This document shows, piece by piece, positions 37,909 through 51,432 of a DNA stretch of 64,000 nt. Below the pieces are notes generated by a model. It did no database searches. It had not been told where the DNA came from and saw nothing but the letters and a program-made list of their open reading frames with translations. Both the position numbers and the translations under genes were made by a program. Where the stretch lies: NCBI RefSeq assembly GCF_016342405.1, contig NZ_JAEINN010000003.1, positions 124,001-188,000 of the forward strand, in the 5' to 3' direction. Source of the stretch: Maridesulfovibrio ferrireducens (GTDB lineage Bacteria; Desulfobacterota; Desulfovibrionia; Desulfovibrionales; Desulfovibrionaceae). Each line of letters opens with the position of its first letter. The first letter of the stretch is position 1.

Positions 37909-38184
37909 ATGAACAAAAGTGAACTGATCAAGAATCTTGCTGAAGAAAAAGGACTCCATGTAGACGAGTCTTCCGAAATTGTTGATGCATTTGTCGATGC
38001 CATAAAAGAAGCTCTTGTCCGTGGTGACAGAGTTGAAATTAGAGGTTTCGGCAGTTTCAAAATGAAAGAATACCAAGGCTATACCGGCAGAAATCCGAAA
38101 ACGGGTTCTGTTGTTAGTGTAACCCCTAAAAAATTACCGTTCTTCCGCCCAGGTAAAGAGCTTAAAGAATTTTTGAACGGTTAA
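37909..38184 (+). CDS. HU/IHF family DNA-binding protein (second copy)
   Basis: Histone-like DNA-bending protein of 91 residues. NKSELIKNLAEEKGLHVDESSEIVDAF forms the helices; VEIRGFGSFKMKEY, GRNPKTGSVVSVTPKKLPFFRPGKELKEFL form the beta sheet, arms and C-terminus. The arm sequence and LPFFRPGKEL differ from the hup gene at 21442, so it is a diverged paralogue, possibly IHF-like. GGAGAGG precedes the ATG. Its stop shares a base with the ATG of the selenoprotein gene (TAATG). Confidence 0.92.
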   Translation: MNKSELIKNLAEEKGLHVDESSEIVDAFVDAIKEALVRGDRVEIRGFGSFKMKEYQGYTGRNPKTGSVVSVTPKKLPFFRPGKELKEFLNG

Positions 38185-39074
38185 TGCGACTATACATATT
38201 TATTCTTTTCATCCTTGCCAGCATTGGACTTCCTTTTCAAGCTCATGCTGGCAAGGATGTGGCATTATCTATTGTATACACTGCCAACACCTTCGGGACA
38301 GTTAACCCCTGTCCTACATGAGGCGGAAAAACACTTGGAGGACTGGCCCGGCGGGCTGGTTATTTTATAGATCTTCGAGACTCTAAAAGTCCCGAGAGTT
38401 TTTTTGTTGGCGGAGCATTCGAATTTTTACCTACATCCGGCGAATCAGTCCCTGCTCTTAAAAGAGATGCTCTCTCTAAATCATTCCAGTTTATGAATTA
38501 TGATTTAGGGATTCTCAGTCCTGCTGAGGCAATTTTTTTAAAAGACTCGCCAAACGGAATTCCTGAAAACTGGATCAACTGCAACAAAACTTCAGTCAAA
38601 ATTATCCCTTTAGCTCACGGCAAAAAAGCCGGGTTCATAATATTGCCTTACCTTGAAAAAGAATCTAAGGGTTTATCTCAAGAGTTAATTGTTGAATTAA
38701 CAGAACTTTTTAAGAAGTTTAAAAACAAAACAGATATCCTGATCGGAATTAGTTCCTGGGGATATTTTAAAGAAAAAAAACTTCTTGCTTCACCAGTTTT
38801 TGCAGAAGCTCCCCTCGATATTCTTCTTGGAAGTGGGGACGGACCGGGAATGACCGGAGCTGTTGATGACAACGGCAAAACTTTATGGGTCCGCAGCTAC
38901 CCTACCGGAAAAGCCGTCAATAGGATTGATATTTTTCAGTGGCCGTCCCGGGATGCTGATTTCAAATGGACTTCAGGGCAGAATATTCGATGGTTTCTAC
39001 AAAGCCTACGTAAAAATAATCGTCAAGAACCAACTGTGTTGAAGCTCATTGAAGGCATTTCAGACGATAAATAG
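38184..39074 (+). CDS. UshA-like exported selenoprotein with in-frame TGA (Sec46)
   Basis: Reading from ATG 38184, one TGA at 38319-38321 interrupts an otherwise open 296-codon frame that ends at TAA 39074. The TGA follows VNPCPT and precedes GGKTLGGLARRAGYF, so decoding as selenocysteine gives a C43-P-T-U46 redox-type motif. A signal peptide (about 1-22, ending QAHA) predicts a periplasmic site. The start of the mature part (SIVYTANTFG) resembles the first metal motif of UshA-like phosphatases (TNDxHG), but the Asp and His are replaced, so a metal-phosphatase role is doubtful. I recall a family named UshA-like (seleno)protein. A nonsense pseudogene is less likely, because coding pattern holds on both sides and a hairpin follows the TGA. 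The start overlaps the HU stop. Confidence 0.82.
38341..38361 (+). promoter_or_regulatory. candidate bacterial SECIS hairpin
   Basis: Starting 20 bases after the TGA, GACTGGCCC pairs with GGGCTGGTT (nine pairs, three of them G-U) around a loop GGC. Loop G residues about 29 bases after the TGA agree with the spacing and G-rich apex of bacterial selenocysteine insertion elements. Fold inferred by eye. Confidence 0.55.
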
Positions 39075-39095: not shown

Positions 39096-39974
39096 ATGAC
39101 TTTCCAAGGAGCATTCACTGCTCTGGTTACTCCGTTCAAGGACGGAGCAATTGATCAGAATGCGTATCGTGAACTGATCGAATGGCAGATTGAACAAGGC
39201 ATCGACGGTTTAGTTCCATGCGGAACAACCGGCGAAGCGGCAACTATGACTCACGAAGAACAGGGTGAGGCTATAAAAATCTGTGTCGAGCAGGCCAAGG
39301 GACGTGTCCCGGTCATCGCTGGCGCAGGTTCTAACAATACTAAAGAAGCCGTATACCTTACAGTTCTTGCTAAAAAAGCAGGTGCTGATGCCACCCTCCA
39401 GATCACTCCTTATTACAATAAACCGACCCCGCAGGGACTCCTTGAACACTTCAAGGCTCTTTCTAAAGAAGCGTCAATGCCCTTCTTTCTTTACAATGTG
39501 CCGGGAAGAACTGGTCTTAATGCCCAGCCCGAAACAATTGCAAGAATAGCAAGAGAAGTTCCCGATGTTATCGGTGTAAAAGAAGCGACAGGAAACCTTG
39601 AACAATGTTCAAACCTTATTGAACAATGCCCCGAAGGTTTCATAGTTTTCTCAGGTGATGATTTTACAGTGCTTCCGTTACTTTCCATCGGCGGCCATGG
39701 TGCGATTTCAGTAGTATCAAACATCGCTCCAAAGCTGATGAGTGAAATGTGTGCGGCATATCGCGCAGGGAATACCGCAAAAGCAAAGGAAATCCATTAT
39801 AAACTACAGCCTCTTAACAGAGCGATGTTTATTGAAACGAATCCTATTCCCGTTAAAACATCCCTTGGAATGATGGGTAAGCTCGAAACTTCATTCAGAC
39901 TTCCCATTGTTCCCCTGCTTCCTGAAAACGAATTGGAGCTAAAAAATATTCTGAAAGACAACGGAATAATCTAA
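39096..39974 (+). CDS. dapA: 4-hydroxy-tetrahydrodipicolinate synthase
   Basis: Condenses pyruvate with aspartate semialdehyde in the lysine/diaminopimelate pathway through a lysine Schiff base. The 292 residues form the DapA TIM barrel: ALVTPFKDGAID, the hydroxyl pair site CGTTGEAATM, PVIAGAGSNNTKEA, PYYNKPTPQGL, the Tyr of FLYNVPGRTG, the Schiff-base Lys of VIGVKEATGN, and VFSGDDFTVLP. CAGGAGG precedes the ATG. A bidirectional terminator follows. Confidence 0.96.
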   Translation: MTFQGAFTALVTPFKDGAIDQNAYRELIEWQIEQGIDGLVPCGTTGEAATMTHEEQGEAIKICVEQAKGRVPVIAGAGSNNTKEAVYLTVLAKKAGADATLQITPYYNKPTPQGLLEHFKALSKEASMPFFLYNVPGRTGLNAQPETIARIAREVPDVIGVKEATGNLEQCSNLIEQCPEGFIVFSGDDFTVLPLLSIGGHGAISVVSNIAPKLMSEMCAAYRAGNTAKAKEIHYKLQPLNRAMFIETNPIPVKTSLGMMGKLETSFRLPIVPLLPENELELKNILKDNGII

Positions 39975-50433: not shown

Positions 50434-51432
50434 ATGAAAAATTTAAACTCCGAACAAGATTTCCTAGCACTCATAGACACTTACTTTCCGTCCATAAACG
50501 GACACGTAACTTTAGGCAGAGGTGACGACTGCTCCATTTTACGGACAAACAAAGAACTCTGTATAAGTAAGGATCTTTTCCTTGAAGATGTGCATTTCCG
50601 GCGCTCATACTTCTCGCCTGCAGACATCGGATACAAATCGCTTGCCGTAAACATCAGTGACATTGCAGCAATGGGCGGAGTTCCAAAAGGTTTTGCCCTA
50701 GGCCTTATCGTTCCTCCGGAACTGGATGAAAGTTACTGGGACTCACTCCTGAAAGAAATGGCTAAACTTGCAAACAGACACAGACTTATCCTTGCCGGAG
50801 GAGATTTGTGCAAAGGTACATCGCTTGGCATATCCGTAACGGTCTGGGGTGAGCCATTTCAGAACCCGAAACAAAATTCAGGCTCTAAGGGTAAATTTTT
50901 AACCCGTGGTAATGCAAAGCCGGGAGACATACTTTTCATACACGGCTCATTGGGGCTTGCGCGCACCGGAATGCTCCTGTTGGAAAAAGATGAACCGTGC
51001 AGCCGCGACACCTTCCCAAAGAGCGTACAGGCTCATTTACGGCCTCAAACACGAATAGAAATAGGTAACACTCTTTCAACATTCCCATCCGTAACAGGAC
51101 TGATGGATTTATCTGACGGACTGGCACGGGATCTGCCACGTTTTATTAATTGCTGCGAAACAGCATTCGGAGCTGAAATATCTTTACCTGAAGATCTTCT
51201 TCACAGTGAAGTTATACGATTTGCCAAAACAAACGGAATTCCACCCGAAGAACATGCTTTTCAAGGCGGTGAAGATTACGCCCTTTTCGGAGCCGCATCC
51301 GCTGATGGATTTGATGAGCTGATAAATACAGTAGAAGGAATTGTCCCGATCGGAGTGCTTACTGATAGATCTGAAATTTTACTCAACGGCAAAAAATATT
51401 CAGAAAAAGGATTTGATCATTTTTCAGGTTAG
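50434..51432 (+). CDS. thiL: thiamine-monophosphate kinase
   Basis: Phosphorylates thiamine monophosphate to the active diphosphate with ATP. The 332 residues match the PurM-like ThiL family: GRGDDCSIL with the metal Asp, CISKDLFLEDVHF, GYKSLAVNISDIAAMGG, the ATP-loop RLILAGGDLCKGTS, LMDLSDGLARDLPRF and FQGGEDYALFG. It begins eight bases after the helicase stop with AGGTAAAAAAATG. No thiamine riboswitch is present upstream. It is the second-last gene of the run from the MATE exporter. Confidence 0.93.
   Translation: MKNLNSEQDFLALIDTYFPSINGHVTLGRGDDCSILRTNKELCISKDLFLEDVHFRRSYFSPADIGYKSLAVNISDIAAMGGVPKGFALGLIVPPELDESYWDSLLKEMAKLANRHRLILAGGDLCKGTSLGISVTVWGEPFQNPKQNSGSKGKFLTRGNAKPGDILFIHGSLGLARTGMLLLEKDEPCSRDTFPKSVQAHLRPQTRIEIGNTLSTFPSVTGLMDLSDGLARDLPRFINCCETAFGAEISLPEDLLHSEVIRFAKTNGIPPEEHAFQGGEDYALFGAASADGFDELINTVEGIVPIGVLTDRSEILLNGKKYSEKGFDHFSG

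Follow-up and report, generated by a model that had tools for sequence, protein, structure and literature searches.

The gene at positions 38184..39074 of a stretch of Maridesulfovibrio ferrireducens DNA raises two questions: whether its in-frame TGA encodes selenocysteine (Sec), and what the resulting protein might do. The stretch analysed, referred to here as the window, comprises 64,000 nucleotides (nt) of contig NZ_JAEINN010000003.1 (assembly GCF_016342405.1, positions 124,001 to 188,000, forward strand), and is numbered from its first letter. Translation of the gene with TGA read as Sec (U) gives a protein of 296 residues on the + strand, running from ATG at 38184 to TAA at 39072-39074. 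The sole in-frame TGA, at 38319-38321, corresponds to residue 46 in the context VNPCPT-U-GGKTLGGLARRAG, and the frame contains no other stop; retranslation thus confirms the first-pass annotation, made from the sequence alone, of an otherwise open 296-codon frame split by one TGA. Codons 1 to about 22 (38184..38249, +) were recognised by eye as a predicted signal peptide, with a basic start, a hydrophobic core and AHA ahead of the likely cleavage site. The CPTU motif (38310..38321, +) ends in the Sec codon, and together with the signal-peptide-like N-terminus it bears out the proposal of an exported selenoprotein with a CxxU motif. A mechanical scan of the window found eight TGA-split frames of at least 200 codons on both strands, this gene included; homology was checked for 38184..39074.

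Profile searches placed the read-through product in a curated family. Its score against the NCBIfam model NF049981.1 (UshA_like_Sel_2, 'UshA-like (seleno)protein family 2') was 302.7 bits, above the cut-off of 140. The match covers positions 1-261 of the 262 in the profile, and since it runs across the TGA, the frame is more than chance. The product shares the CxxU motif and nearly the whole profile with this family, and we found no difference from an ordinary member. With NF041198.1 (UshA_like_PCGU) it scored 45.3 bits, under the cut-off of 275, which places it outside that family; the N-terminal part of NF041198 is homologous and carries its Sec in the same alignment loop, but the motif there is CxU rather than CxxU, and the profile extends over 519 positions. 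Pfam contained no family matching the product at E ≤ 1, and none matching its nearest named relative (L002), while Rfam gave nothing above its gathering score and three sub-threshold microRNA or snoRNA matches that appear chance-like. Sec insertion together with NF049981 membership is virtually certain, and the combination of these two with a UshA-type fold is highly probable.

The selenoprotein family is already catalogued and is not new; the find is already known because the family is curated (NF049981) and in print. Table 1 of a May 2026 review lists 'UshA-like selenoprotein family 2, NF049981, CxxU' and gives 'GenBank annotated' where a reference would stand (PMC13188914), and UshA-like CxU selenoproteins already appear in the 2008 GOS (Global Ocean Sampling) survey (PMC2398784). 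Among the partial texts retrieved on UshA-like selenoproteins, NF049981 and Desulfovibrio selenoproteins, we found no functional study of the family, and no title or abstract opening among the matches listed for Desulfovibrio selenoproteins names it. The expectation that standard gene callers would report the downstream piece alone held for the plain open reading frame (ORF) list, in which the next start codon 3' of the TGA, ATG 38493, yields a 193-residue product (38493-39074) in the absence of recoding. It may well fail for the NCBI pipeline, which could annotate the Sec form because NCBI has a model for this family.

The TGA is retained among relatives, and the frame is under selection along its length. 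Of 395 genomes drawn from the phylum, six had a match over the NF049981 cut-off, each with exactly one internal TGA; 153 had a match at E ≤ 0.001, and among the matches listed most have one TGA. Within the taxonomic family of the host, at least 150 of 288 genomes carry a match over the cut-off, and a scan of genome contigs, in which very near records may be omitted, returned one relative, from a Desulfovibrio sp. metagenome-assembled genome. The ratio of nonsynonymous to synonymous substitution rates (dN/dS), calculated with four relatives that keep the TGA, was 0.10-0.20 on its 5' side and 0.13-0.23 on its 3' side, and purifying selection on both sides is a strong argument against a pseudogene, which we reject. 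That the TGA is a true stop, with internal re-initiation producing 38493-39074 alone as in the plain ORF list, was likewise rejected as exceedingly improbable, since this piece would be without the CxxU motif, the signal peptide and the first strand and helix of the fold, a region over which both sequence conservation and selection persist. A nonsense mutation or sequencing error (TGC or TGT to TGA), in a dying or an ordinary Cys gene, would require a change of a single base, and homologues with CPTC exist. Such an error is nevertheless a most improbable account, as one TGA is present in all six over-cut-off genes of the phylum draw and in the four relatives used for dN/dS, with synonymous change between them, dN/dS is low after the TGA, and the hairpin described below is kept mainly where the TGA is present.

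A selenocysteine insertion sequence (SECIS)-like hairpin was located at 38342..38360 (+), within codons G-L-A-R-R-A-x. The 5' arm (38342-38349) and 3' arm (38353-38360) form eight of eight pairs around the loop GGC (38350-38352), with 28 nt between TGA and loop, and the hairpin is also the minimum-energy fold. Rules for bacterial SECIS elements quoted in the same review specify a loop of 3-9 nt, a stem of 4-16 bp, a G in the first two loop positions and a UGA-to-loop distance of 16-37 nt (PMC13188914). By direct check the GGC loop, 8-9 bp stem and 28-nt spacing all lie within these bounds, and with the covariation described next they support the bacterial SECIS that the first-pass annotation had proposed to look for.

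Pairing in this hairpin follows the Sec codon among relatives. Close Sec genes form a mean of 7.11 of the eight pairs, with six or more in 54 of 57, and close Cys genes a mean of 4.65, with six or more in 3 of 23. An alignment of 52 distinct gap-free Sec sequences with 28-nt spacing (A2), drawn from the 57 close Sec genes, had 88.9% of its cells paired and a covariation score of 0.253, and none of 500 shuffles matched either value; relatedness inflates such shuffle tests, and the Cys control and slid registers guard against this in part. Slid registers of A2 gave 28-49% pairing, far under the true register. The corresponding Cys alignment (A3) left out seven of the 23 close Cys genes, whose spacing differs, and its 16 sequences were 57.0% paired, at the level of their shuffles (413 of 500 as high). 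The stem itself is unusual, in that its eight pairs were reached by 91 of 5000 synonymous recodings.

Several observations weigh against reading this hairpin as a conserved SECIS. The fold energy is unremarkable (z = -1.61, with 14 of 200 shuffles folding as well), and an equally good fold is reached by 1113 of 5000 synonymous recodings. Three pairs in A2 changed on both sides, a number equalled by 48 of 500 shuffles, and the two outer stem pairs fail to form in 19 and 20 of the 52 Sec genes. In distant Sec relatives the exact stem is not kept, with a mean of five of eight pairs in the 18 of 25 that have the motif. The Cys alignment also pairs better in its true register (57.0%) than in slid ones (30-45%), as shared protein sequence would give.

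The host genome encodes the machinery through which the TGA would be decoded. It has SelA (607.6 bits), with SelB (374.2 bits) about 1.5 kb further on along the same piece of sequence; tRNA-Sec was found at 80.1 bits with anticodon TCA, and SelD is itself interrupted by an in-frame TGA (context SAGUAAK). All three genes that the first-pass annotation had suggested confirming, selA, selB and selC, are therefore present, and selD in addition. A separate weak match to the SelD model at 50503-50958 (+) of the window (21.7 bits, below cut-off) may represent a further member of this enzyme superfamily. On the comparative evidence, SelA, SelB, tRNA-Sec and SelD of the host would decode the TGA as Sec, with the hairpin at 38342-38360 directing insertion.

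The state of the site was compared with the presence of SelB in 28 genomes, which do not form a random sample, having been hand-picked (19 for having the gene but no SelA match) and including several incomplete drafts. A TGA-bearing copy occurs in 16, of which 14 have SelB over the cut-off; the other two, with SelB matches only below it, are G547 (67% complete) and G647 (96% complete, 220 contigs). Eleven genomes have TGA-free copies only, with Cys at the site in each, and one of these (G503) has SelB over the cut-off; G499 has SelB and no copy of the gene. Viewed from the other side, 10 of the 12 genomes without SelB over the cut-off carry Cys copies only. The TGA state was recorded at 25 places, 13 with TGA and 12 without.

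Alignment of homologues addressed the prediction that Cys should appear at position 46. A profile search over the fetched loci produced 122 rows when overlapping loci are counted, with Sec in 93, Cys in 26, Ser in two and Lys in one at the site; by distinct gene (n = 110) the counts were 82, 25, two and one. Removal of near-copies reduced the 119 matches that scored at least 90 bits and had a readable site to 86, or 87 with the window, and 80 of these 87 rows formed the main alignment (A1), leaving out seven near relatives, all Sec (L051, L053, L056, L057, L059, L071, L072). The letter C stands for both Sec and Cys in A1, the two being told apart by codon. All 80 rows have one of these two residues in the site column, Sec in 63 and Cys in 17, so no stop or unrelated residue occurs there. 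The Ser rows belong to distant relatives (L130, L131), in which a CGC motif seems shifted in the alignment, and the Lys row (L033) to a more ordinary UshA-like protein of the host genome, encoded outside the window; all three matches fall below 90 bits and outside A1. A quick tree that excluded the site column and the columns next to it requires at least seven switches between Sec and Cys, six of them forced by starred branches. In genus g281, Cys (CPTC) and Sec copies stand in tandem (L077, L085, L086, L087, L096/L119 and G639 (L076)); for the G639 pair, the letters of the Cys copy were checked.

The fold of the product was assigned from an AlphaFold model (predicted local distance difference test score, pLDDT, 95) as the N-terminal domain of the UshA/SoxB/5'-nucleotidase fold. 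In UshA and 5'-nucleotidases the metal-site ligands include D, H, D, N, H and H, and SoxB thiosulfohydrolase is a two-domain protein with a metal site. When these six of the seven ligand positions were mapped by eye from motifs, none was kept in the product; among 56 close rows, 49 keep none, five keep one and two keep two, and some distant relatives retain up to three. The UshA-like fold with lost metal ligands, as first annotated, is upheld by model and alignment together, which point to a single metallophosphoesterase-type domain whose metal-binding residues have been lost. In comparison with UshA and 5'-nucleotidases (CD73 and kin), all six tested ligands are replaced, the C-terminal domain is absent and a CxxU motif is present, and an ordinary 5'-nucleotidase was rejected as a candidate. 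Three CGC/CGU relatives (L016, L022, L030) are fused to a Cytochrome_C554 (haem) domain.

In the alignment and the model, Cys43-Pro-Thr-Sec46 occupies the loop that joins strand 1 to helix 1. There Sec46 would serve as nucleophile and Cys43 as its partner, forming a reversible Se-S bond; we infer this redox pair from the CxxU pattern and the loss of the hydrolase site. Judged from sequence, the protein's most likely role, and a reasonably probable one, is selenol/thiol redox chemistry in the periplasm.

Two alternatives for the function were weighed. The protein could still be a hydrolase, either a nucleotidase or a SoxB-like thiosulfohydrolase, in which Sec contributes to catalysis or metal binding. 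Its fold is that of SoxB and the 5'-nucleotidases, the SoxB model is matched by 23 of the 80 A1 members at E ≤ 0.001, and distant relatives keep part of the ligand set. With none of the six tested ligands in this protein or in most close rows, and a length of about the N-terminal domain alone rather than the two domains of SoxB, hydrolysis is an unlikely function. Alternatively, CxxU may serve mainly to bind metals or heavy metals, as in a sensor or chaperone, with no redox cycle. CxxU pairs could bind soft metals, and no redox partner adjoins the close members examined. Against this, some relatives carry a fused haem domain of the cytochrome c554 type or stand beside rhodanese and MauE/DoxX genes, which point to redox and sulfur chemistry, and a metal-binding role is accordingly rather improbable.

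The redox role also has evidence to its disadvantage. The immediate neighbourhood (HU, dapA) offers no direct support for it, and 3 of the 63 Sec rows have another residue in place of the motif's partner Cys, namely E in L117, S in L026 and V in L028. A Cys-Sec bond is therefore not universal, and the second place of the motif is more constant than the first; these three members suggest that Sec can act without a partner.

A further and rather doubtful extension of the redox role is that a SoxB-like scaffold was converted stepwise from a metal-dependent hydrolase to a selenol redox or sulfur-transfer protein, acting on the persulfide or S-S bonds of a periplasmic partner. The first-strand loop, once a holder of metal ligands, would have acquired PCxxU as ligand after ligand disappeared, as the partial retention in distant relatives may reflect. 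The gene forms a conserved pair with the HU gene ahead of it, and here the two overlap at the HU stop and the selenoprotein start codon.

The gene lies between an HU-family DNA-binding protein gene (37909..38184, +; Pfam Bac_DNA_binding, 108.7 bits), whose TAA overlaps the selenoprotein ATG by one base (TAATG), and a dapA-type gene (39096..39974, +; Pfam DHDPS, 327.1 bits), which begins 21 bases past the selenoprotein stop. Of 81 distinct close homologues, some with short flanks, 71 have an HU gene no more than 900 nt upstream of the Sec/Cys codon, and 47 have dapA downstream. The remaining ten that lack HU there comprise the second copies of four tandem pairs (L077, L085, L086, L087), the contig-edge genes L101 and L120, and four Cys paralogues (L081-L084). 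Each of these Cys-only paralogues has a prepilin-type protein (Pfam N_methyl) near it, with HU not adjoining, and near L081 there is also an AAA ATPase with a peptidoglycan-binding domain. The neighbourhoods of close members are housekeeping-like and say little on function.

Among distant relatives, the Sec gene of two genomes in one genus is followed by genes for a rhodanese-domain protein and a MauE/DoxX membrane protein (L127:10327-11319, L132:2035-3113), and in two different taxonomic families the gene directly after it encodes a CCG-domain 4Fe-4S protein (L124:9397-10542, L125:8703-9953). Such neighbours occur in few lineages and are only hints. The upstream HU gene, the tandem Cys and Sec copies, the repeated Sec/Cys switching and the prepilin-side Cys paralogues go unmentioned in the published UshA passages available, with no search aimed at these features.

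The comparative evidence confirms a recoding event where the plain ORF list splits the gene in two, and a predicted signal peptide, a CxxU motif and a SECIS-like hairpin are now placed in a widespread selenoprotein. The family contains natural pairs, in the SelB-less genomes with mostly Cys copies, the Cys genes that mostly lack the hairpin and the genus with tandem Cys and Sec copies, with which to ask what selenium gains over sulfur in an exported protein of probable redox function. With a metal site lost beside a Sec site, it may offer a good example of how an enzyme scaffold changes its chemistry.
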